A DNA stretch of 64,000 nt, taken from NCBI GenBank assembly GCA_002287035.1, contig NSKG01000004.1, positions 248,001 through 312,000 of the forward strand. The letters are read 5' to 3'. The notes under the pieces were generated by a model. The model searched no databases. It saw only the letters and a program-made list of their open reading frames with translations, and was not told where the DNA came from. Each line of letters opens with the position of its first letter. The first letter of the stretch is position 1. Below are positions 2,300 through 15,791 of this stretch, one piece after another. A program made the position numbers and the translations under genes. The stretch comes from Pseudomonas sp. WN033 (GTDB lineage Bacteria; Pseudomonadota; Gammaproteobacteria; Pseudomonadales; Pseudomonadaceae).

Positions 2300-2379
2300 T
2301 CCTGGGAAGCGGGAGCATCTGCTCCCGCAGTGAGCCCGCCGCATCCCCGTCCTGGAGCAGATGTTCCAGGCTCCCAGGA
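2300..2379. repeat. Dispersed palindromic repeat, family B, single copy
   Basis: About 80 bp with inverted ends (TCCTGGGA ... TCCCAGGA) and two inner palindromes, GGGAGCATCTGCTCCC and CTGGAGCAGATGTTCCAG. The same core (GAGCATCTGCTC / GAGCAGATGCTC) recurs at 42846-43014. It resembles REP-type elements. Confidence 0.75.
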
Positions 2380-2531
2380 AACCCCAAGCCACTCTCAAGT
2401 CCGCCCCTGCCTGCTGATAACCTCATGACGGTTAAATTTGCATGTCAAATTGCTGTCAATAGGGCCTTGAGAGGCGATGACTGGCTGCAAGTGCCTGTCA
2501 AGATGAAAGAAAAAAATCCTTTAAAAGGTCC

Positions 2532-2558
2532 TAAAGCTCCCCGAACAGACGCCGATAA
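2532..2558 (+). promoter_or_regulatory. Sigma-28 (FliA) promoter of flagellin 1
   Basis: TAAA at 2532-2535, exactly 15 bases, then GCCGATAA at 2551-2558: a full match to the FliA consensus. It lies about 95 bp upstream of the flagellin ATG. Confidence 0.9.
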
Positions 2559-2652
2559 AGTAATCGAATGCGAACTCTATGGGTGCCTGGGCAAGTCCCG
2601 CCTTAGAGGCGCAGGCTCAGGCAAACATCATTAGGTCCTCTGGAGGCATGAC

Positions 2653-3840
2653 ATGTCCTTGACCGTTAATACCAACGTTGCGTCGCTGAATACTCAGCGC
2701 AACCTCAATAGTTCGGCCAGTTCTCTGCAGACATCCCTGCAGCGTCTGTCCACCGGCTCGCGTATCAACTCTGCCAAGGATGATGCTGCCGGCCTGCAGA
2801 TTGCCAACCGTCTGACCAGTCAGGTCAATGGTCTGAATGTAGCGGTGCGCAATGCCAATGACGGTATTTCGCTGGCGCAGACCGCTGAAGGTGCTCTGCA
2901 GCAGTCGACCAATATCCTGCAACGTATGCGTGATCTGGCCCTGCAGTCGGCCAACGGCTCCAACAGCGCTTCCGAGCGCGAAGCGCTGAATGCCGAAGTC
3001 ACTCAGTTGAAAAAGGAAATCGACCGGATCAGCAACACCACCACCTTTGGTGGCCGCAAGCTGCTGGATGGCAACTTTGGTATTTCCAGCTTCCAGGTTG
3101 GCTCGGCGGCTAATGAAATCATCAGTGTTGGCATTGGTGAGATGAGTTCTAGCTCTTTGGAGGGGGATTACTTCTCTGGTAATAGTGCTGAGTTTGATCC
3201 GGCGGCAGGTACCATCGTAGCAGGTGATGTGACCGTTGCCCTGACGCTGACAACGGGTACTGTGAACGTGACAGCTACCATGAGTGGCGGCGAAACCAAT
3301 AAGCAGGCGGCAGAAAAAATTGCGGCAGCGGTGAATGATGCCAATGTTGGCGTGGGTGCCTTCGTTGAGGAGGACCCTGACAATGCTGGCGACTTCCTGA
3401 TCAAATACGTTTCCAAGGCGGATGATGATGGCGCCTCTCTGTTGACCAGCGTAGCAGTAACCGACACTGATACTACCGGTGTGGGTACGCTCGGTTCTGC
3501 GGCAGCAATGACAGCTTCGACTGACAATACTGTCAAGGATATCGACATTACTACAGCCTCAGGTGCGCAGGCAGCAGTGCTGGTTATCGATGATGCGATC
3601 AAGATGATCGATTCTCAACGCGCTGACCTCGGTGCGGTACAGAACCGCTTCGAGAACACCATTGCCAACCTGCAAAACATTGCCGAGAACGTGTCGGCTG
3701 CCCGTGGACGGATTCAGGATACCGACTTTGCCGCGGAAACTGCGAACCTGACCAAGAACCAGATTCTGCAGCAGGCCGGTACCTCTATCCTGGCCCAGGC
3801 CAACCAGTTGCCGCAGGCGGTACTCAGTCTGCTGGGCTGA
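2653..3840 (+). CDS. fliC: Flagellin, copy 1
   Basis: 395 residues, the polymerising subunit of the flagellar filament, secreted through the type III flagellar export channel. The N-terminal D0/D1 domain (about residues 1-175, opening [18 protein letters not shown]) and the C-terminal D1/D0 domain (about residues 315-395, ending [11 protein letters not shown]) are nearly identical to the three following copies. The middle (about 176-310) is a variable, acidic, Thr/Ala/Val-rich D2/D3 region that differs between copies. The D1 stretch [10 protein letters not shown] corresponds to the segment recognised by TLR5 in other flagellins. Start ATG has TGGAGG upstream. It is transcribed from a sigma-28 promoter and closed by a strong hairpin. 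Confidence 0.97.
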
Positions 3841-3863
3841 TCTGGCAGTAGGGTTGGTTTTCA

Positions 3864-3893
3864 ACACAAGCCGGGCTTATGCCCGGCTTGTGT
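3864..3893 (+). terminator. Terminator hairpin after flagellin 1
   Basis: A perfect 13-bp stem (ACACAAGCCGGGC / GCCCGGCTTGTGT) with a TTAT loop, 24 bp past the stop. The T-run is weak. The core AAGCCGGGC is shared with the hairpins after flagellins 2 and 3. Confidence 0.8.
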
Positions 3894-4001
3894 GTATTTG
3901 CGGCAGGCGCTTGCCTGCGCGGCAAAAATTTGCCGGAATATCTCGCTGGTCAGTCGGTCTGGCTGGCTGTAAGTGGCCGTGGTTGGGCGCTTTATTGTTG
4001 T

Positions 4002-4017
4002 TGGCACACTTCCTGCT
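4002..4017 (+). promoter_or_regulatory. Candidate sigma-54 promoter of flagellin 2
   Basis: TGGCACACTTCCTGCT keeps the invariant GG (4003-4004) and GC (4015-4016) separated by 10 bases; only one base of the TTGC block differs (CTGC). Farther down, GCCGAATA at 4072-4079 looks like a sigma-28 -10, but no TAAA sits 15 bases before it. This copy therefore seems to use a promoter class different from its three sisters. Confidence 0.6.
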
Positions 4018-4150
4018 CATTCAACCTTGTGACATTAAAAAGCGGCAATGCAGTCGTTCGTCTGCATCGATGCCGAATATTCGTTGAATGCAGATTGCAT
4101 GGCTGCCTGGTGATCGCGGTACGGGCAACAGGCAACAATGGAGGCAAGAC

Positions 4151-5332
4151 ATGTCCCTGACGGTGAACACCAATGTGGCGTCGCTGAATACCCAGCGTAA
4201 CCTCAATACTTCATCCAATGCGCTGCAGACTTCTTTGCAGCGTCTGTCCACCGGCTCGCGCATCAACTCCGCCAAGGATGATGCTGCTGGCCTGCAGATT
4301 GCCAATCGTCTGACCAGTCAGGTCAATGGTCTGAACGTGGCGGTACGCAACGCCAATGACGGTATCTCGCTGGCGCAGACCGCCGAAGGTGCTCTGCAGC
4401 AGTCGACCAATATCCTGCAGCGTATGCGCGATCTGGCCTTGCAGGCAGCCAACGGCTCCAACAGTGTCTCTGAGCGTGAGGCGCTGAACGCCGAAGTCAG
4501 TCAGCTGAAAAAGGAAATTGACCGGATCAGTAACACCACTACCTTTGGTGGGCGCAAATTGCTGGATGGCAATTTCGGTATTTCCAGCTTCCAGGTCGGC
4601 TCGGCGGCCAATGAGATCATTAGTGTTGGCATTGGCGAAATGAGTGCTCAGTCGTTGCAAACCAACTTCTACTCGGAAGCTTTTGGTGATGCGGCTGGTA
4701 CGGTAACTGTCGATACCCAGGTTACTCTTGATCTGGTGTTTACTGACACCAGCAAGAACACAACCATCACGGTTGAACTGAAAGCTGGCGATACTGGTGA
4801 TCTTCTTACCGCCAAACTGGCAGCGGCAATCAATGACGCCAATATCGGTGTGGGTGTGCACCTTGATGCTGATGGTGACTATCAGGTGATTTCGCGCACT
4901 GATGCCAATGATCCAACGGTCAGCGATTTGCAGACCATCACTTTTGGTGACTCCACTCCAGCTTCAGGTGCGACATTCACTACTGTTGACCTGTCGGCTG
5001 CTACACCGGTGGCAGACAATACTATTGCTGACCTGGATATTCGCGATGTGGCGGGAGCTCAGGCGGCAATTCTGGTGATCGACGAATCCATCCGTCTTAT
5101 CGATGCCCAGCGCGCCGAACTGGGTGCGGTGCAGAACCGCTTTGAAAACACCATTGCCAACCTGCAAAACATTGCCGAGAACGTCTCGGCGGCCCGTGGG
5201 CGGATTCAGGATACCGACTTTGCTGCGGAGACAGCGACGCTGACCAAGAACCAGATTCTGCAGCAGGCCGGAACCTCAATTTTGGCCCAGGCCAATCAGT
5301 TGCCCCAGGCCGTACTCAGTCTGTTGCAGTAA
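4151..5332 (+). CDS. fliC: Flagellin, copy 2
   Basis: 393 residues. Same conserved D0/D1 ends as copy 1 (opens [20 protein letters not shown], ends [11 protein letters not shown]), with its own central region (about 175-310) rich in Asp and Thr. I chose the ATG at 4151, after GGAGGCAAGAC, because it aligns with the start of the other copies; a longer frame opening at 4088 adds 21 residues not seen in flagellins. Small N-terminal differences ([23 protein letters not shown]) set it apart from copies 1, 3 and 4, and the ALG-type linker [10 protein letters not shown] replaces [10 protein letters not shown]. Its upstream region holds a sigma-54-like site rather than a clear sigma-28 site. Confidence 0.96.
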
Positions 5333-5351
5333 GTTGTATTTGTGGCGGGGC

Positions 5352-5377
5352 AAAGCCGGGCCTGCGCCCGGCTTTTT
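5352..5377 (+). terminator. Rho-independent terminator after flagellin 2
   Basis: Stem AAAGCCGGGC / GCCCGGCTTT with a CTGC loop, running into a TTTTT tract. About 20 bp after the stop codon. Confidence 0.88.
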
Positions 5378-5405
5378 GCTGCCCGAAGAATTGCCGGTGC
5401 TGGCC

Positions 5406-5432
5406 TAAAGCTTTGTCGGTGGGTGCCGATAT
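5406..5432 (+). promoter_or_regulatory. Sigma-28 (FliA) promoter of flagellin 3
   Basis: TAAA at 5406-5409, 15-base spacer, GCCGATAT at 5425-5432 (one mismatch to GCCGATAA), about 90 bp before the ATG. Confidence 0.87.
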
Positions 5433-5519
5433 AGGGATTGAACGCAGATTTCATGGTTGCCCGACCTCGGTCGAACCATGGAGTGGATACTGGGCAATCG
5501 CCATTATCGGAGGCACTAT

Positions 5520-6680
5520 ATGTCCCTGACCGTCAATACCAACGTAGCATCGCTGAATACCCAGCGTAACCTCAACAGTTCCGCCAGCTCGCTGCAGACT
5601 TCCTTGCAGCGTCTGTCCACCGGTTCGCGTATCAATAGTGCCAAAGATGATGCTGCCGGCCTGCAGATCGCCAACCGTCTGACCAGCCAGGTCAATGGTC
5701 TGAATGTGGCGGTGCGTAACGCCAATGATGGTATCTCGCTGGCCCAGACCGCCGAAGGTGCATTGCAGCAGTCGACCAATATTCTGCAACGCATGCGTGA
5801 TCTGGCCCTGCAGTCGGCCAACGGCTCCAACAGCGCTTCCGAGCGTGATGCGTTGAATGCCGAAGTGACCCAGCTGAAAAAGGAAATTGACCGGATCAGC
5901 AACACCACCACCTTTGGTGGTCGCAAACTGCTGGATGGCAACTTTGGTATTTCCAGCTTCCAGGTTGGCTCCGCGGCTAATGAGATTATCAGTGTTGGTA
6001 TTGGCGAGATGAGCAGTTCTTCTCTAGAAGGCTCATACTATGAAGGCTCGATTGCAGTGCCGACTATTGCTACTGCTGCTGAAGATGGTGAGATGGCTAT
6101 CACTGCGACAGTAGGTGGTAAAGCTTTCAGTTTTTCTGCCGCCATTAGTGCGGGAGATGATGTGGCGGCTGTAAGTGCCAAGATAGCTGCAGCGATCAAT
6201 GACGCCAACATGGGAGTGGGCGCCTTTGTTGATGAAGCTACCAATGCAATCAGCATTATCTCGCAGCAGGATGCCGATGGCGCTAATGCGCTTACCGCAC
6301 TCAATGTGGCTGATGGTGCGGGGGTAACGGCTGGTGCATATACAGCTGCTGCGGCGATTACTGATGAAAGTGTTTCAGACATTGATATTACTACTGCAGA
6401 TGGCGCGCAAAAAGCAGTGCTGATCATTGATCAGGCGATTCAAACTATCGACTCTCAGCGTGCCGACCTTGGTGCGGTGCAGAACCGCTTCGAAAATACT
6501 ATCGCCAACCTGCAGAACATTGCTGAGAACGTCTCGGCAGCCCGAGGTCGTATCCAGGATACCGACTTTGCCGCCGAGACTGCGAACCTGACCAAGAACC
6601 AGATTCTGCAGCAGGCCGGTACTTCGATCCTGGCTCAGGCCAATCAGTTGCCACAGGCTGTGTTGAGCTTGCTGGGCTGA
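5520..6680 (+). CDS. fliC: Flagellin, copy 3
   Basis: 386 residues, with the same conserved ends as copies 1 and 4. Its central region (about 176-306) is strongly Ala-rich and is the shortest of the four. The start ATG at 5520 follows CGGAGGCACTAT; an upstream in-frame extension to 5457 is not flagellin-like. The run [17 protein letters not shown] and the segment [20 protein letters not shown] before the C-terminal D1 helix are nearly shared with copy 1, suggesting these two are the closest pair. Own sigma-28 promoter and own terminator, so it is a single-gene unit. Confidence 0.97.
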
Positions 6681-6708
6681 GTAGCTTGGTTAAGCATGTT
6701 GATGTTGA

Positions 6709-6732
6709 GAAGCCGGGCGTATGCCCGGCTTC
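6709..6732 (+). terminator. Terminator hairpin after flagellin 3
   Basis: Perfect 10-bp stem GAAGCCGGGC / GCCCGGCTTC with a GTAT loop, followed by TTGCG. Same core as the hairpins after flagellins 1 and 2. Confidence 0.8.
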
Positions 6733-6766
6733 TTGCGTATGGATGAGTAAAAAATCGTTATTGGGC

Positions 6767-6793
6767 TAAAGCTTTAGTCGGCCTGGCCGATAA
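6767..6793 (+). promoter_or_regulatory. Sigma-28 (FliA) promoter of flagellin 4
   Basis: TAAA at 6767-6770, 15-base spacer, GCCGATAA at 6786-6793: a full consensus match, about 100 bp before the ATG. Confidence 0.9.
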
Positions 6794-6890
6794 CTTTTCT
6801 GAATGCGGATTCTGTTGGTGCCTGGGAAGTGGCGGGTGCCTGAGACGCAACCCAGGCAGTAGCCTTAAATTGCTTCAGTGGAGGCGACCC

Positions 6891-8057
6891 ATGTCCTTGA
6901 CAGTAAATACTAACGTAGCATCGTTGAATACCCAGCGTAACCTCAACAGCTCGGCCAGCTCGCTGCAGACCTCGTTGCAGCGCTTGTCCACCGGCTCACG
7001 CATCAACTCCGCCAAGGATGATGCTGCCGGTCTGCAGATTGCCAACCGTCTGACCAGTCAGGTTAACGGCCTGAACGTGGCGGTACGTAATGCCAACGAC
7101 GGCATCTCGCTGGCGCAAACCGCCGAAGGCGCTCTGCAGCAAACCACCAATATTCTGCAGCGCATGCGTGACCTGTCACTGCAATCGGCCAACGGTTCCA
7201 ACAGCGACTCAGAGCGTGAGGCGCTGAATGCCGAAGTCACTCAGCTGAAGAAAGAAATTGACCGGATCAGCAACACTACCACTTTCGGTGGCCGCAAGCT
7301 GCTGGACGGTAATTTTGGCATCTCCAGCTTCCAGGTTGGCTCGGCGGCCAACGAAATTATCAGTGTCGGTATTGGCGAGATGAGCTCCAGCTCGCTTGAT
7401 GGGACTTTCTTTGAGAGTGCCTTGGGGGCTGCCGGAGCTGCTACCGCTGATGGCTCTTTGGAGCTGACGCTGGTTTTTGAAGATATTGATGACGTTGTTA
7501 TCAATGTAGATATCAAGAATGGTGAAACTGCCGACCAGGTAACGGACAAGATTGCTGCTGCAATCAACGATCTGAACCTTGGGGTGGGTGTTCTCAAAGA
7601 TGGTGCTGATGCTTATCAAGTGATTTCGGGGGCCGCTCAGGACGGAACCAGTAACGCGTTGACCAGCATAACCATGACAGACGCTGATGGCACGGGTGTG
7701 ACATTCACTGCGGTCACTGCATCTACAACTGCTGCTACCGCAAACACGGTCAAGGACATCGACATCACCAACGCCGCGGGTGCCCAGTCGGCCATTCTGG
7801 TCATCGACGAAGCGATCAAGCAGATCGATTCCCAGCGTGCCGACCTCGGTGCGGTGCAGAACCGCTTCGAGAACACCATTGCCAACCTGCAGAATATTGC
7901 CGAGAACGTCTCGGCAGCCCGTGGCCGTATCCAGGACACCGACTTTGCCGCCGAGACTGCGAATCTGACCAAGAACCAGATCCTGCAGCAGGCCGGTACT
8001 TCGATTCTGGCTCAGGCCAATCAGTTGCCGCAGGCTGTTTTGAGTCTGCTGCAGTAA
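6891..8057 (+). CDS. fliC: Flagellin, copy 4
   Basis: 388 residues with the conserved D0/D1 ends (opens [19 protein letters not shown], ends [11 protein letters not shown]) and a distinct central region (about 176-308) with Asp- and Thr-rich strands. The ATG at 6891 follows GGAGGCGACCC and aligns with the other starts. It is the last of the array and is followed 75 bp later by flaG. The small N-terminal substitutions ([24 protein letters not shown]) mark it as a separate lineage within the array. The presence of four complete copies suggests a filament of mixed composition or alternative filaments. Confidence 0.97.
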
Positions 8058-8080
8058 GATTGACCGGATGTGAAATGACG

Positions 8081-8105
8081 GGGGAAAGGTGCTAGCCTTT
8101 CTCCC
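8081..8105 (+). terminator. Possible terminator after flagellin 4
   Basis: An imperfect hairpin, GGGGAAAGG-TGCTAG-CCTTTCTCCC, with one bulged base and no T-run. It could reduce rather than stop transcription into flaG, for which no promoter of its own is visible. Confidence 0.45.
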
Positions 8106-8131
8106 GCATTGTCCTTAATGAGGATACCGCC

Positions 8132-8521
8132 ATGGACATGGGAATGCTTGGAACAGCGATCTCTGAACGGCCAGCAGGTGCTGCTGTCAGCGCGGCTGCC
8201 GGTAAGGTTGTTAGTCTGGTAGCAGGCAAGGCGCCAGAGACTCCGGATAGTCAGAACAAAACTGCACTTCCCGCTGTAGTTGAGGTCCAACCGGCTGATC
8301 GCCAGAGTCTGGAAAAAGCCGTGTCGGACATGCAGGACTTTGTCCAGAGCGTGCGGCGGGATATCAATTTCCAGTTAGATGATGGCACTGGTCAAGTCGT
8401 AGTCCGGGTCACCGAGGCGGCTACTGGTGATGTGATCCGTCAGATTCCTTCCGAGGAGGCTCTGCGTCTGGCAGAGAACCTGTCGGAGATTCGTAGCTTG
8501 TTGTTTGAAGCGGAGGCTTGA
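8132..8521 (+). CDS. flaG: Flagellar protein FlaG
   Basis: 129 residues. The C-terminal part (about 60-129) is the FlaG domain, seen in DINFQLDDGTGQVVVRVTEA and VIRQIPSEEALRLAENL; the N-terminal half is low-complexity Ala/Gly. FlaG proteins influence filament length in Pseudomonas and Vibrio. The ATG at 8132 follows TGAGGATACCGC; a second in-frame ATG lies two codons on. Its place between the last flagellin and fliD is the standard one. Confidence 0.9.
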   Translation: MDMGMLGTAISERPAGAAVSAAAGKVVSLVAGKAPETPDSQNKTALPAVVEVQPADRQSLEKAVSDMQDFVQSVRRDINFQLDDGTGQVVVRVTEAATGDVIRQIPSEEALRLAENLSEIRSLLFEAEA

Positions 8522-8604: not shown

Positions 8605-10068
8605 ATGAATATTACCGGTATTGGTTCGGGGCTGGATATCAACTCCATGGTCAAAGCGATCATGGACGCTGAACGTGCCCCCAAGGCCGCGTCGCTCTCT
8701 CGTCTGGAAAGCAAAACCACCGCACAGTTCTCGGCACTGGGGCAGTTCCGCAGTGCTATTTCCGATTTTCAAACTGCGCTGAAGAATCTCAATGATTCGG
8801 CGTTGTTCCAGAAGCGCACCGCGACCTCCTCCAACACGGACTATTTTACTGCCACGGCCACTTCCAGTGCAGCAGCGGGCAACTACAGTGTTCAGGTATT
8901 CAACCTGGCCCAGAGCAGCAAGGTGGCTCTGGCTGGATTCGATTCGGCCACTACCCAGGTTGGCACTGGCGAACTGAATATCACGGTTGGTGACGAGGTC
9001 ATCAATGTTCAGATCGGTGAGGATAAGCAGTCGCTCAGTGCGATCCGCGATGCGATCAATGCCGCTGGTGCCGACAAGGGGTTGAGCGCGGCTATCGTCA
9101 ATGATCCGTCAGGTGTTGGCGGGGCACGCATCGTCCTGACTTCGACCAATAGCGGTTCTGGTAACGATATCCAGGTTGATGTGGCCAATGCCACAGGTGA
9201 CTTTGGCCGGCTGGCCTTTACCCCGCCAGACCCGGAGGCAACCAACTACCAGCCTCCGGCCGCTGATCCAGATGATCCACGGGCCGCGCGGGTGATCAGC
9301 TTTGCCCGTGATGCCAGCTTTGCCGTCGACGGCCTGCTGATGAGCAGTGCCAGCAATACCATCGATGATGTGATCGAGGGTGTGAGCCTGACTCTCAAGA
9401 AACCTCAGTCTGCGGAGGATATTGCCAACGCCAATACCTTCAACCTGGTCGTGGCTGAAGACCGCGCCGGGGTTAAGGCGAACCTGCAGAAATTTGTCGA
9501 TGCCTACAACAAGCTGATCGATACCACCAACTCGCTGACCCGGGTAACCCAGGTCGGCGGTGATTCTGGTACTCCACTGGCCGGGCCGTTGGTTGGTGAC
9601 GCTACCGTACGTTCGTTCCTCAGTGCCATGCGTACCGAGCTTGGCAATGCTCAAGGCTCTGGTGATATTCGCATTCTGGCCGATCTCGGGATTACCACCA
9701 AGCAGGACGGCAAGCTGGAAATTGATAGTGATAAGCTGGATCAGGCGCTGGAGCGTAACTTCGATCAGGTTCAGGGTTTCCTGACGGGAGAGAAGGGCTT
9801 GATGGGGCGCCTGGAAGCACGCGCTGAGCCTTATATACAGACCGGTGGCATTCTCGAGCAGCGTACCAAGTCGCTGCAGACCACCCTCAAGAATATCGAT
9901 AAGCAGCGTGAAGACCTGGATCGCAGGATGTCTGCCATGGAAACGCGTCTTTTTGCGCAATTCAACGCTATGGATATGCTGGTAGGGCAGCTCAGCCAGA
10001 CTAGTCAGTATCTCGAAAACCAGCTTTCCAACCTGCCGGGCGTAGTAAGACAGGATAGAAAACGATGA
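8605..10068 (+). CDS. fliD: Flagellar filament cap protein FliD (hook-associated protein 2)
   Basis: 487 residues. FliD caps the growing filament and guides flagellin folding and insertion. The N-terminus [16 protein letters not shown] is the conserved FliD opening, the N-terminal coiled-coil region follows to about residue 70, and the C-terminal D0/D1 helix is long and charged ([20 protein letters not shown]), ending in [20 protein letters not shown] start at the ATG 8605 after GAGGTGAG; a GTG three codons earlier is possible but lies inside that ribosome site. The stop overlaps the start of fliS by 4 bases, indicating translational coupling with the chaperone. Confidence 0.96.
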
Positions 10069-10433
10069 GCAATCCGATCGATACCTACAAGCAGGTCAAG
10101 GTTTCCCAGGAAGTCTCGCAGTACCGTGCGGTCCAGTTGTTGCTGGCTGGTGCTATTGAGCGGGTGCGTTTGGCACGGCATGCCCAGGAAAGCGGTAACG
10201 CCGAACAACGCGGTGTCGCCATTGGCAGCACCATCAGCATCATCGGTGCTCTTCAAGGGGCGCTGGACAAGGAGTTGGGCGGTGAAATCGCCGCAAACCT
10301 GGATGCGCTCTATGATTACATGACCCGTAAACTGGCAGGTGTGGCTTTGGATGACACGCCGCGCACCCTGGATGAGGTTGAGTTGTTGCTGGCCCAGATC
10401 AAGGACGGTTGGGACGCCATCGAGCCGGCTTGA
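10065..10433 (+). CDS. fliS: Flagellin export chaperone FliS, copy 1
   Basis: 122 residues, all helical. FliS binds the C-terminus of newly made flagellin in the cytosol and keeps it from polymerising before export. Family marks: [27 protein letters not shown] near the N-terminus and a four-helix core with [27 protein letters not shown]. It overlaps fliD by ATGA. A second, diverged fliS follows 240 bp later; with four flagellins, the two could have different clients. Confidence 0.94.
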
Positions 10434-10611: not shown

Positions 10612-10637
10612 TAAAGTTTTCCCCCGGCAGCCGATAC
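10612..10637 (+). promoter_or_regulatory. Candidate sigma-28 promoter of fliS copy 2
   Basis: TAAAGTTT at 10612-10619 and GCCGATAC at 10630-10637. The -35 block matches the extended FliA consensus, but the spacer is 14 rather than 15 bases and the last base of the -10 differs. It lies 37 bp before the ATG. Confidence 0.6.
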
Positions 10638-10673
10638 AGGAAGTATGTGCAACACTCACTCAGGATGTGCTCG

Positions 10674-11060
10674 ATGAATGCCTACGCCGCCATGAAGCAA
10701 TACCAAACGGTCAACGTCAACGCCCAGATCAGTGAAGCTGACCCGCATCGGTTGATTCAGATGCTGATGGAGGGTGGATTGCGGCGGATTGCCGAGGCCA
10801 AGGGGGCAATGGAATATGGCAATCTGGCCCTCAAGGGGGAGTTGGTAGGCAAAGCTGTAGCGATTATCGGTGGTCTGCGCGACGGTTTGAACCGGGAGCA
10901 GGGTGGTGAGATTGCCGAAAACCTGGATAACCTGTATGCCTTTATGCAGCAGCGCCTGAGTGCAGCCAATCTGCAGAATGATCCGGCAATCCTCGACGAA
11001 GTGGCCGGGTTGTTGCGAGAAGTCAAAAGCGGTTGGGATGGCATCCGTCACGCCGCCTAA
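10674..11060 (+). CDS. fliS: Flagellin export chaperone FliS, copy 2
   Basis: 128 residues from the ATG at 10674 (opens MNAYAAMKQYQTVNVNAQIS), chosen because AGGA lies 8 bases upstream and the protein then aligns with FliS. The longer frame from 10557 crosses the promoter and is rejected. It keeps the FliS core (PHRLIQMLMEGGLRRIAEAK, GLRDGLNREQGGEIAENLDN, LYAFMQQRL) but is clearly diverged from copy 1. Twin fliS genes are known in Pseudomonas (fliS/fliS'). It leads a short unit with the FliT-like gene that starts 10 bp after its stop. Confidence 0.93.
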   Translation: MNAYAAMKQYQTVNVNAQISEADPHRLIQMLMEGGLRRIAEAKGAMEYGNLALKGELVGKAVAIIGGLRDGLNREQGGEIAENLDNLYAFMQQRLSAANLQNDPAILDEVAGLLREVKSGWDGIRHAA

Positions 11061-11595: not shown

Positions 11596-13065
11596 ATGCT
11601 GCTCAATAGCCATATTTTGCTTATCGATGATTGCCCGCAGAATCGTCATGATTTGAGTGTGATTCTGGGGTTTCTGGGGGAAGAGGCGGTCATTTCCACG
11701 TCTTCGGACTGGCAGCGCGACGTCAATGACGAATTCGAGTCGCCTGGTTCAGTCAAGTGCGTGATTCTCGGCCGCTGTGATCATGACCATGGCGTTCAGG
11801 GCCTGCTTGGGCAATTGGACAAGTGGGATGAAAACCTGCCCGTGGTGATGCTGGATCCGACTCAGGCCAGCCATTGGCCTGAGCACCTGCGTCAGCGTCT
11901 GCTGGCGGTGCTGGAGCCACCGCTGAGCTACAGCCAGTTCCTCGATACTCTGCACCGGGCCCAGGTTTATCGCGAAGTGTTCGATGAGCGCAGCAGCCGG
12001 CCACGTCAGCGCGAGCCTAACCTGTTTCGTAGTCTGGTTGGCACCAGCCGGCCGATTCAGGCGGTGCGGCAGATGATGCAGCAGGTCGCCGACACCGAAG
12101 CCACCGTATTGATTCTGGGTGAGTCAGGCACCGGCAAGGAAGTGGTGGCGCGTAATCTGCATTATCACTCCCGCCGCAAGGATTCCCCGTTCGTACCGGT
12201 CAACTGTGGCGCGATTCCGGCCGAGTTGCTGGAGAGCGAGCTGTTTGGTCATGAAAAGGGCGCCTTTACCGGAGCAATTACCAGTCGTGCCGGGCGCTTT
12301 GAGCTGGCCGAAGGGGGCACCCTGTTTCTCGATGAAATCGGTGACATGCCGCTGCCGATGCAGGTCAAGCTGCTGCGGGTGCTGCAGGAACGGACTTTTG
12401 AGCGAGTTGGCAGCAACAAGGTGCAAACCGCCGATGTGCGAATCATTGCCGCGACTCATAAGAACCTCGAGAAAATGATTGAGCAGGGCAGCTTCCGTGA
12501 AGATCTCTATTACCGCCTGAATGTCTTCCCGATCGAAATGCCGGCGATGCGTGAGCGGATCGAGGATCTGCCGCTGCTGCTCAATGAACTGATTACCCGG
12601 ATGGAAACCGAGAAGCGTGGCTCGATCCGTTTCAGCACCTCGGCGATCATGTCGCTGTGCCGGCACGACTGGCCGGGCAACGTGCGTGAGCTGGCCAATC
12701 TGGTCGAGCGTATGGCGATCATGCATCCGCATGGGGTCATCGGCGTCGGTGAGTTGCCGCGCAAGTTCCGTTACGTCGAGGATGATCACGAGGACCTGCG
12801 TCAACTGCGTGACGATGAGGATGAACGCAGTGAAGCTTTCAACGGTCTGGTTGGGCTGGACAGCCCAGCCTTCCTGCCACCCGAAGGGCTGGATCTGAAA
12901 GAGTACCTGGGGGGGCTGGAGCAGACCCTGATCCAGCAGGCGCTGGATGAGTCTTCAGGGGTCGTGGCGCGGGCTGCCGAGCGCCTGCGGATCCGGCGTA
13001 CCACGCTGGTCGAGAAGATGCGCAAGTACGGCATAAATCGCGGGATCGATGCGTCAGAAGACTGA
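11596..13065 (+). CDS. fleQ: Flagellar master regulator FleQ (sigma-54 activator)
   Basis: 489 residues, the family's usual length. FleQ activates the sigma-54-dependent flagellar promoters and, in Pseudomonas, responds to c-di-GMP and FleN. The N-terminal domain (1-120) is REC-like but lacks a receiver's phospho-acceptor. The AAA+ domain carries Walker A GESGTGKE (about residue 175), the sigma-54-contacting GAFTGA loop ([17 protein letters not shown]), and Walker [14 protein letters not shown]. The C-terminal Fis-type helix-turn-helix is [23 protein letters not shown] at 11596. It stands alone between a terminator and the sigma-54 promoter of fleSR; the sigma-54 promoters found in this window are its likely targets. 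Confidence 0.96.
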
Positions 13066-13120: not shown

Positions 13121-13136
13121 TGGCATAGGGCTTGCT
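13121..13136 (+). promoter_or_regulatory. Sigma-54 promoter of fleSR
   Basis: TGGCATAGGGCTTGCT fits TGGCAY-N6-TTGCW fully; GG at 13122-13123 and GC at 13134-13135. It lies 44 bp before the fleS ATG, so a fleS start at the TTG 13132 would be inside the promoter. Confidence 0.9.
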
Positions 13137-13179
13137 TAAGCCCTCCCTGACCGGAGTTTCAACGATCAGGGGATGCCCC

Positions 13180-14382
13180 ATGGCTGTATCCGCACACTCG
13201 CTGCCTGATAACGGGCAGTCACCAACCGAGGCCGTTCAGGCCGAGCGTATCGAGCATAGCCGCGCGCTGCTTGAGCAGGTCTCTGCGCAACTGATCGAAT
13301 CCCATGCTTTGCTTGAGGCCCAGGTAGATACGCTCAAGCGTCAACTGGCCGACGTGCATGCCCAACGCACCCGAGAGCTGGCGGAAAAAGCCTGTGTCAC
13401 GGCACGTCTGCAAAATCTCCTGGATCTGTTGCCGGGTGGGGTAGTGGTACTCGATGGCCGGGGTGTAGTGCGAGAGGCCAATCCGGTGGCGCGTGAACTA
13501 TTGGGCGAGCCATTGGAAGGTCAGCTCTGGCGTGATCTGATTCAGGAGCGCTTTGCCCCGCGCGAAGATGATTACCACGAAGTATCACTGCGCAGTGGTC
13601 GGCGGGTCTCGCTTGCTACCCGGTCTTTGCGTGGCGAACCGGGCCAACTGATTCTGATCAACGATCTTACTGAAACCCGGGAGTTGCAGGCTCGCCTGGC
13701 CCGCCATGAACGCTTGTCGGCTCTGGGGCGCATGGTTGCCTCCCTGGCGCATCAGATTCGTACACCGCTGTCGACCGCGTTGCTGTATGCCAGTCACTTG
13801 GGTGATGACGCCCTGAGTCTTGAACAGCGTCAACGTTTCAGTCTGCGCCTGAAGGATCGGCTGCAGGCCATGGAGCAGCAGGTGCGCGACATGTTGCTGT
13901 TCGCCCGAGGCGACTTGCCGTTGGAGGATCGTTTGACGCCGCCGGCATTGTTCGAGCGCTTGCGTCTGCAGGCTGAGCCGGTGCTGGAGCAGGCCGGGAT
14001 CAAGTGCCGCTGGGTTGACCTGTGCCCGCCGCAGGGGTGGCTGCGTTGCAATGCCGAAACCTTGGTCAGTGCCTTGCTCAACCTGGTGGAAAATGCCTGC
14101 CAGGCCGGTTCGATGAGCTCAGGGCTCAAGGTGGTGGCGCGGCGGCTGGAAGGGCAGTTGAGTCTGTGTGTAGTGGATAACGGTCCGGGTATGAGTGCCG
14201 AATTGTTGGCGCGCCTGGCAGAGCCGTTCCATACCACCAAGCCCCAGGGAACCGGTCTGGGACTGGCGGTGGTCAAGTCGGTGGCGCGGGCGCACGGTGG
14301 AGCGTTTCATTTGCGCAGCAAGGTCGGCCGGGGTACCTGCGCCGAAGTCCTGTTGCCGATTCAGTTTGGTGGGGAGGAGTAA
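13180..14382 (+). CDS. fleS: Flagellar sensor histidine kinase FleS
   Basis: 400 residues, no transmembrane segment, so cytosolic. Order: N-terminal coiled coil (about 20-80), a PAS domain (about 85-170, LLDLLPGGVVVLDGRGVVRE), HisKA with the phospho-accepting His in SLAHQIRTPLSTAL (about residue 190), and the HATPase domain (N box NLVENACQAGS, G1 DNGPGM, G2 GTGLGLAVV). It phosphorylates FleR to turn on the hook and basal-body genes. Start: ATG 13180 with AGGGGA upstream; a longer frame begins inside the sigma-54 promoter. The next gene, fleR, follows after 2 bases. Confidence 0.96.
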   Translation: MAVSAHSLPDNGQSPTEAVQAERIEHSRALLEQVSAQLIESHALLEAQVDTLKRQLADVHAQRTRELAEKACVTARLQNLLDLLPGGVVVLDGRGVVREANPVARELLGEPLEGQLWRDLIQERFAPREDDYHEVSLRSGRRVSLATRSLRGEPGQLILINDLTETRELQARLARHERLSALGRMVASLAHQIRTPLSTALLYASHLGDDALSLEQRQRFSLRLKDRLQAMEQQVRDMLLFARGDLPLEDRLTPPALFERLRLQAEPVLEQAGIKCRWVDLCPPQGWLRCNAETLVSALLNLVENACQAGSMSSGLKVVARRLEGQLSLCVVDNGPGMSAELLARLAEPFHTTKPQGTGLGLAVVKSVARAHGGAFHLRSKVGRGTCAEVLLPIQFGGEE

Positions 14383-14384
14383 TC

Positions 14385-15791
14385 ATGACTCAGAAGATGC
14401 TGCCAATTCTGCTGGTGGAAGATGATCAGGCGCTGCGCGAAGCGTTGGTCGATACCCTGGCCCTGGCAGGCTATGCCTATCGCGAGGCTGAAAGCGCTGA
14501 GGCCGCCCTGGCTCTTCTGGCGCGTGAACCGGTTGCCATGGTGGTCAGTGATGTGAACATGCCGGGCATGGATGGTCACGCGCTGTTGCGTACGCTGCGC
14601 AACCGCTATCCGCAAGTGCCGACGCTGCTGATGACGGCCTACGGCACCGTGCACCAGGCCGTGGGCGCCATGCGTGATGGTGCAGTCGACTATCTGGTCA
14701 AGCCCTTCGAGCCGGAGGCTCTGACTTCGCTGGTGCGCCAGTACGCTCAGGGTCAGTTGCAACCCAGCGCTGACCAGGGGCCGGTCGCGGTCGAACCAGT
14801 CAGTCAGCAATTGCTGGCGCTGGCGCAACGGGTTGCCGTCAGTGATTCGACAGTACTGATCTCGGGTGAGTCGGGTACTGGCAAGGAGGTGCTGGCGCGC
14901 TACATTCATCAGCAGTCACCACGGGCCGACAAACCTTTCATCGCGATCAATTGCGCAGCGATACCCGAGAATATGCTTGAGGCCACCCTGTTCGGTCATG
15001 AGAAGGGGGCCTTTACCGGTGCGGTCGCCTCGCAACCCGGCAAGTTCGAGCAAGCCAATGGCGGCACCCTGTTGCTCGATGAAATCTCTGAGATGCCTTT
15101 GGGTCTTCAGGCCAAGCTGTTGCGGGTATTGCAGGAGCGTGAAGTTGAGCGGGTGGGGGGGCGCAAGTTGATTGACCTGGATATCCGGGTCATTGCCACC
15201 ACCAACCGGGACATGGCTACCGAGGTTGCGGCTGGGCGTTTCCGCGAGGATTTGTATTATCGGCTTGGAGTCTTTCCGCTGCAGTGGCAGCCGCTGCGTG
15301 CCCGGCCCGGCGATATCTTGCCGATTGCCGAACGTTTGCTGGCCCGGCACGCAGCCAAGATGAAACAGACTGGTGTGCGGTTTGCCGAGGACGCCTGCCA
15401 GGCCCTGCGCAGCCACCCTTGGCCGGGCAATGTCCGCGAGCTGGATAATGCCGTGCAGCGCGCGCTGATTCTGCAACAGGGTGGGCTCATCGCCGCTGCG
15501 GATCTGTGTCTGGCTGGCCCGCCGGGGTTGGCGGCGGCCCCGCTGGTACAGGTTCCGACGGTCGAAGCACCAGCGATTCCTGCGGCTTCTGTCGCTGCCG
15601 GGCCCGAGCGCCTGGAAACTGGCGTTCGTCAACGTGAGTATCAACTGATCATTGACGTGCTGCGCGCTGAGCGTGGACGACGCAAGGAAGCCGCCGAGCG
15701 CCTGGGTATCAGCCCTCGTACCCTGCGCTACAAGCTGGCGCAGATGCGTGACGCCGGATTTGATGTTGAGCGGGATCTGGTGGCGTACTGA
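14385..15791 (+). CDS. fleR: Flagellar response regulator FleR (sigma-54 activator)
   Basis: 468 residues. Receiver domain 1-120 with the acidic pair VEDD, the phospho-acceptor D56 in VVSDVNMPGMDG, and K in VDYLVKPFEP. AAA+ domain with [13 protein letters not shown], the sigma-54 contact loop in [12 protein letters not shown], and GGTLLLDEISEMP. C-terminal Fis-type helix-turn-helix RRKEAAERLGISPRTLRYKL. It should act on class III sigma-54 promoters such as that of fliE's neighbours and hook genes outside this window. Start ATG after GGGGAGGAGTAATC. Downstream is a tandem repeat array, then fliE. Confidence 0.96.
   Translation: MTQKMLPILLVEDDQALREALVDTLALAGYAYREAESAEAALALLAREPVAMVVSDVNMPGMDGHALLRTLRNRYPQVPTLLMTAYGTVHQAVGAMRDGAVDYLVKPFEPEALTSLVRQYAQGQLQPSADQGPVAVEPVSQQLLALAQRVAVSDSTVLISGESGTGKEVLARYIHQQSPRADKPFIAINCAAIPENMLEATLFGHEKGAFTGAVASQPGKFEQANGGTLLLDEISEMPLGLQAKLLRVLQEREVERVGGRKLIDLDIRVIATTNRDMATEVAAGRFREDLYYRLGVFPLQWQPLRARPGDILPIAERLLARHAAKMKQTGVRFAEDACQALRSHPWPGNVRELDNAVQRALILQQGGLIAAADLCLAGPPGLAAAPLVQVPTVEAPAIPAASVAAGPERLETGVRQREYQLIIDVLRAERGRRKEAAERLGISPRTLRYKLAQMRDAGFDVERDLVAY

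Follow-up and report, generated by a model that had tools for sequence, protein, structure and literature searches.

Introduction

In the accessible parts of the published reports, FlaA of Shewanella putrefaciens is described as a FliA-independent flagellin that can precede completion of the hook-basal body and occupies the basal part of the filament, next to the motor (PMC6299084), and flaA of S. oneidensis as likewise independent of sigma-28 (PMC3120886). Vibrio cholerae flaA is presented there as an FlrBC/sigma-54 gene that is expressed with rod and hook, the other flagellins being sigma-28 dependent (PMC7064773, PMC3930126), and FlaB of Helicobacter pylori and Campylobacter jejuni as RpoN dependent beside a FliA-dependent flagellin (PMC3930126). 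For Pseudomonas aeruginosa, the accessible text of PMC8036289 assigns flgB, flgF and fliK to class III (sigma-54 plus FleR), fliD and fliE to class II (FleQ) and fliC to class IV (FliA). An RpoN-dependent or paralogous flagellin in the Pseudomonadaceae was not mentioned in the titles and abstracts of the open-access matches listed in our literature search. Arrangements of this kind, in which a FliA-independent flagellin accompanies others that use sigma-28, have been described before; the case presented here is new as far as the literature searched shows.

The window, that is, the whole stretch of 64,000 nucleotides from Pseudomonas sp. WN033 that was analysed, contains four flagellin genes in a row. 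We consider it likely that the second, F2, belongs to the early, class III-type flagellar genes and is transcribed with sigma-54, most likely under activation by FleR; its product would be the first flagellin to enter the filament, at its base.

Results

Flagellin genes and their promoters

According to Pfam, the flagellar cluster at the start of the window comprises the four tandem flagellins, followed by flaG, fliD, two fliS genes, fliT, fleQ, a fleS-like and a fleR-like gene. Both rpoN and fliA are encoded in the same genome. The features are as follows.

2532 to 2558, plus strand: sigma-28 promoter of F1, TAAA-N15-GCCGATAA, matrix score 29.7
2653 to 3840, plus strand: flagellin 1 (F1), Pfam
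3872 to 3890, plus strand: terminator-like hairpin in the F1-F2 gap, with a poor T run
4002 to 4017, plus strand: sigma-54 promoter element (-24/-12) of F2, TGGCACACTTCCTGCT, GG-N10-GC, 10 of 12 consensus letters, predicted start at about 4028
4042 to 4049, plus strand: GCGGCAAT, corresponding to the left half of the element behind the flgF promoter (whose majority form is GCGGCAATTNNTTGTCGC) and proposed as a site for FleR, offset 21 nt as at the flgF gene of the same genome
4048 to 4067, plus strand: dyad ATGCAGTCG/CGTCTGCAT, an inverted repeat, 89% complementary
4072 to 4079, plus strand: decayed sigma-28 -10 remnant of F2, GCCGAATA; the matching -35 place, 4053 to 4056, reads GTCG
4151 to 5332, plus strand: flagellin 2 (F2), 393 amino acids, Flagellin_N and Flagellin_C (Pfam)
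5406 to 5432, plus strand: sigma-28 promoter of F3, TAAA-N15-GCCGATAT, matrix score 18.1
5520 to 6680, plus strand: flagellin 3 (F3), Flagellin_N and Flagellin_C (Pfam)
6767 to 6793, plus strand: sigma-28 promoter of F4, TAAA-N15-GCCGATAA, matrix score 17.6
6891 to 8057, plus strand: flagellin 4 (F4), Flagellin_N and Flagellin_C (Pfam)
11596 to 13065, plus strand: fleQ, FleQ and Sigma54_activat domains (Pfam)
13132 to 14382, plus strand: fleS-like sensor kinase with a provisional start codon (PAS, HisKA, HATPase_c), named from its position ahead of fleR
14385 to 15791, plus strand: fleR-like sigma-54 activator with a receiver domain (Response_reg, Sigma54_activat), the proposed activator of F2

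The fleR-like protein is named from its domains and position, since no NCBIfam model was above its cut-off among the 25 matches listed.

The original prediction had assigned F2 to sigma-54 and the other three flagellins to sigma-28, and the sequences that it relied on are indeed present. F1, F3 and F4 have TAAA-N15-GCCGATA(A/T), beginning at 2532, 5406 and 6767. F2 has no paired TAAA; the -10-like GCCGAATA stands alone, and 70 bp ahead of it lies the sigma-54-type site TGGCACACTTCCTGCT, whose GG (-24) and GC (-12) are separated by ten letters, in a context near TGGCAC..TTGC. This assignment of sigma factors is well supported by the sequence. The same prediction had made F2 dependent on FleQ, and this part is less likely to hold as far as direct control is concerned (see below).

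In the F2 leader, RNA structure was not more stable than in shuffled sequences (z 0.28). An inverted repeat, TGCCTG...CAGGCA, lies at 4098 to 4140 directly ahead of the ribosome binding site of F2; similar stems are present in the leaders of F1 and F4, and like letters in many fliC leaders of the genus. A search of 2300 to 8200 against Rfam gave no family above the cut-off and one subthreshold match, to sX6, at 3739 to 3914.

An flgF-like promoter ahead of F2

Taken alone, the sigma-54 site was set aside as proof, since the window has 13 sites with at least 10 of the 12 letters and 10.7 are expected from a first-order Markov model. A lone site is thus at chance level, and we therefore compared F2 with the promoters of rod and hook genes. 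The flgF promoters of 19 genomes of the genus have a two-part frame, TGGCA(C/T)...TGC followed 20 to 22 nt further on by a GCGGCAATTNNTTGTCGC-type element, in which CGGCA is present in all 19 and GCGGCAA in 15. F2 reads TGGCAC...TGCT and then GCGGCAAT, at an offset of 21 nt that equals that of its own genome's flgF and of 8 of the 19 flgF promoters; over the whole frame, 25 of 48 letters are identical between F2 and that flgF. This downstream element had been overlooked in the original prediction, and it is in combination with it, and only so, that the F2 site becomes credibly nonrandom. Unlike flgF, F2 lacks the right half of the complete element (GCGGCAA...TTGTCGC): TTGTCGC is not present in phase, and its place is occupied by the dyad ATGCAGTCG/CGTCTGCAT. 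Read on the minus strand, this dyad and a T run form a terminator-like hairpin (4046 to 4069).

A sequence-only model was built from the 19 flgF promoters (out of 37 genomes of the genus), with F2 excluded; the likeness of F2 to flgF had been spotted before the model was built. In the 64-kb window the model had a single match, 4002 to 4049, with 16.3 bits and an E value of 0.0007. In the whole 4.16-Mb genome F2 ranked second, after flgF itself, with an E value of 0.03, which is modest and rough. F2 thus has the promoter layout of flgF in the genus, as a class III promoter would.

When the model was run on all 37 genomes, the top match was at the flgF place in every one, as judged from its position ahead of a rod-protein match. 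Six matches outside flgF reached at least 16.3 bits: F2 in the window's genome (G000), F2 in its sister species (G016) and four others (G029, G007, G023 and G027; 16.3 to 17.9 bits). Among the non-flgF matches with E values of up to 2, those spanning model position 1 to at least position 48 were F2 in both species and sites ahead of flgB in G021 and G017. Ten weaker matches were inspected, with genes assigned by eye, and several fit the sigma-54 half only. Examples are an A-rich noncoding locus that we take to be CrcZ, the fliD gene of G007 and, in both G030 and G018, genes resembling transporters.

An explicit pattern, TGGCAYN6TGCN{20,32}CGGCAA, chosen with F2 already seen and with genes assigned by position, gave 73 matches in the 37 genomes: 33 at flgF, 3 ahead of flgB, 2 at F2, 3 just behind fliC and 32 others, against 8 for the reversed control pattern. 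In the window's genome it occurs twice, at flgF and at F2, and the reversed pattern is absent. The 32 unexplained matches amount to about 0.9 per genome, so that a chance match on the right strand within 300 bp ahead of any of the four flagellins would be found about once in ten thousand cases, a figure that flatters the case because the pattern was picked with F2 in view. Furthermore, we trained a two-part matrix on the flgF promoters with those of the window's genome and of G016 left out, so that 17 of the 19 remained; it scored F2 at 23.1 and the genome's own flgF at 46.6; the best score in 1 Mb of Markov sequence (one strand) was 13.1.

FleR or FleQ as the activator of F2

Since the F2 promoter resembles that of flgF, which is class III in P. 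aeruginosa, FleR appears likelier than FleQ as the direct activator of F2. Eight sigma-54-type sites of the genome were compared, and CGGCAA or its complement, TTGCCG, was sought in the 80 nt behind each; the FliE, FliL, FliK, FlgB and FlgF proteins of the genome were confirmed. CGGCAA follows F2 and flgF at one identical offset and fliD at a different one, and neither form was found behind the sites of fliE, fleS, fliL, flgB and fliK. In three other genomes (G017, G021 and G029) the element stands ahead of flgB. Since flgB and fliK of the window's genome are without it, the element does not appear to mark FleR control or class III promoters in general here; by its letters and spacing it ties F2 to flgF. 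The titles and abstracts of the literature searched name no FleR site for flgF, and the flgF-like element is a candidate for such a site.

If FleQ instead were the direct activator of a sigma-54-driven F2, F2 would be a class II gene made with the basal body, before rod and hook. The vicinity of fleQ is in line with this, as is the absence of the element from flgB and fliK; moreover, the cap gene fliD, already class II in P. aeruginosa according to the accessible text of PMC8036289, has CGGCAA behind its promoter here, at another spacing. Against it, F2 has its spacing and half-element in common with a class III gene, flgF, whereas the class II-type genes fliE and fleS are without CGGCAA or TTGCCG. 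Direct activation by FleQ is therefore unlikely, and FleQ could act on F2 indirectly, via fleSR. A search for a FleQ box at F2 was discarded: the best site had 9 of 13 letters, which 154 of 400 random 350-bp stretches equalled or surpassed, with a consensus that has little power, fliE and fleS themselves reaching just 10. The resemblance to a FleQ box at F2 is at chance level, weak as that box is.

The sigma-28 remnant at F2

A sigma-28 matrix was derived from 28 fliC promoters of the genus, out of a sample of 31 flagellin upstream regions; one region (L119:7880) had no strict site, and two (L011 and L120) were left out because their last 150 nt duplicated another region. At F2, TAAA followed after 14 to 16 nt by GCCGATA does not occur, and the best site scored -9.9, compared with 17.6 to 29.7 for F1, F3 and F4, with a matrix that is strict by design, its training sites having been chosen by the rule TAAAG...G(C/T)CGATA. 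The -10 remnant GCCGAATA has been kept, and one could imagine that sigma-28 continues to transcribe F2 from a degenerate promoter and that the sigma-54 site, which on its own does not exceed the chance level in 64 kb, is fortuitous or of minor use. The missing -35 and the distance in score from the neighbouring genes make this quite improbable, and the two-part match to flgF would be an improbable coincidence.

Conservation of F2 in a sister species

Between the window's genome and G016, silent and replacing codon differences number 51 and 2 in F1, 28 and 0 in F2, 81 and 75 in F3, and 87 and 28 in F4; the F2 protein (393 codons) is identical in both species. The central domains of F3 and F4 (6000 to 6450 and 7400 to 7750) are largely different between the two, and those of F1 and F2 are nearly constant. 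Alternatively, F2 might be barely served by a promoter in its own upstream region and either depend on readthrough from F1 or be nearly silent, as a spare copy maintained by exchange with its neighbours. This fits the poor T run of the hairpin between F1 and F2 and the low silent divergence of the F2 centre, which suggests recent exchange, but 28 silent changes without a single amino acid change in 393 codons between two species speak for a working protein, and we give this explanation very little credence.

The region from 4002 to 4150 has no difference in 149 positions between the two species, and the nearby genes measured, F2, F3 and F4 excepted, differ by 4 to 7%. This identity was set aside as proof of selection, since silent sites in the central part of F2 have hardly diverged either, with 2 silent changes over 139 codons. 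Recent exchange could be the source of the identity of both promoter and centre. Also, F2 departs from a residue shared by F1, F3 and F4 at 12 places of the core, 8 N-terminal and 4 C-terminal, all of which are kept in F2 of G016. Several of these residues are widespread among the fliC genes that occur singly in the genus (S22 in 20 of 25, N23 in 12 of 25), and for this reason the set was not taken as proof of a special role of F2; part of the 12 differences may be a change shared by F1, F3 and F4.

Distribution of sigma-54-type flagellin promoters

All 37 genomes of the genus match the flagellin query, some of them weakly, and four tandem flagellins are present solely in the window's genome and G016; in most of the others examined there is a single polar flagellin, under a sigma-28 promoter. 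In a BLAST search of 398 genomes of the family, the F2 promoter had full-length matches in the same two genomes only and matches of 22 to 39 bases in 12 others. A sigma-54-like site 91 to 151 nt ahead of a flagellin start was found in these two and in G382, counts that are lower bounds because the search pattern demands one form of the start sequence and the stated spacings. The site in G382 is weak (TGGCTC...TGCG) and has a sigma-28-like pair inside it; a narrower search (67 to 127 nt) gave G382 alone, since F2, at 134 nt, falls outside. By these sequence searches of 398 genomes, only the window's genome and G016 clearly show a sigma-54-type flagellin promoter.

Flagellin pairs of Marinobacter offer an independent hint that the element may accompany sigma-54 flagellins. 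In all six loci (L084, L092, L099, L105, L106 and L113), one gene has, 74 to 119 nt ahead of its start, a sigma-54-like site that matches 9 to 11 of 12 letters, and the partner has a sigma-28 match of at least 10 letters in five; a 10-letter sigma-28-like pair additionally precedes the sigma-54-type gene of L099. CGGCAA or CGGCAG follows the sigma-54 promoter in three of the six, always at one place, which is closer than at F2 by 11 bp, roughly a turn of the helix; moreover, there are two genes there and four here. In the locus survey behind this result, 4 of 80 loci had no flagellin start under the pattern used. A literature search listed nothing on such pairs in Marinobacter.

Discussion

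In the model that we infer for F2 as an early flagellin, the -24/-12 element at 4002 to 4017 would direct RNA polymerase with sigma-54 to a start near 4028, and the activator, most likely FleR, would occupy the flgF-like GCGGCAAT a short way downstream of that start. Production of F2 would thus coincide with that of the rod and hook proteins, ahead of FlgM export and FliA release. F1, F3 and F4 would be made with sigma-28 once the hook is complete, FliA being held by FlgM until then. F2 that had accumulated by the time the hook is finished would be exported ahead of the other flagellins and would build the filament base, by analogy with FlaA of Shewanella putrefaciens.

The comparison with Vibrio FlaA that came with the original prediction is apt in light of the accessible text of PMC7064773 and PMC3930126, and Shewanella FlaA, located at the filament base (PMC6299084, accessible text), is an even better counterpart. 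In Shewanella one flagellin is FliA independent and the other requires FliA, and in V. cholerae a single sigma-54 flagellin stands beside sigma-28 ones, a division that is read here from promoter sequences only. Shewanella differs in having two polar flagellins instead of four, with the FliA-independent gene first and not second in the array, and its regulators are RpoN, FlrA and FlrBC. In V. cholerae flaA is the major or core flagellin, and the Helicobacter and Campylobacter systems are two-gene systems with FlgSR in distant bacteria. The arrangement at F2 is probably of separate origin from these known systems.

Since four polar-type flagellins in a row are present in just 1 of the 36 other genomes of the genus (G016), the array seems to have arisen separately, and since the promoter is restricted to two sister species, the switch looks young. 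As a tentative scenario, less probable than the early role of F2 as such, a sigma-28 fliC would have expanded in tandem and its second copy would have been rewired to the rod and hook programme by gaining an flgF-like promoter and losing the sigma-28 -35. The constant F2 would be laid down first as the base and the sigma-28 flagellins after it, leaving the surface domains of F3 and F4 free to vary fast, and the result would be a segmented filament as in Shewanella, with a separate origin within the Pseudomonadaceae. If this is true, a flagellin copy has come under early control on more than one occasion in evolution, and the steps of the switch may still be readable if it is young. A family with well-studied flagellar regulation would also become a test bed for the question whether the filament base is set by an early flagellin.

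The two FliS paralogues (10065 to 10433 and 10612 to 11060) differ in their setting as well: the first gene lies behind fliD, which has a sigma-54-like site, and the second has a sigma-28 promoter of its own, TAAAGTTT...GCCGATAC at 10612. Both paralogues are present in all 14 loci examined, with the sigma-28 pattern matched ahead of the second gene in 5, and the pair is therefore older than the flagellin array. The FliS encoded behind the sigma-54-type fliD may be a chaperone for the early flagellin.

A second flagellar gene set is present on contigs C7 and C6 of the window's genome (L131 and L132) and in G016 (L133), with flagellin matches of its own, a second FlgB and a second FliA-like sigma factor (C7, 19461 to 20078) above the family cut-off. 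Weaker flagellin matches together with a second FlgB were also found in G016, G017 and G034. This second set looks like a lateral system.
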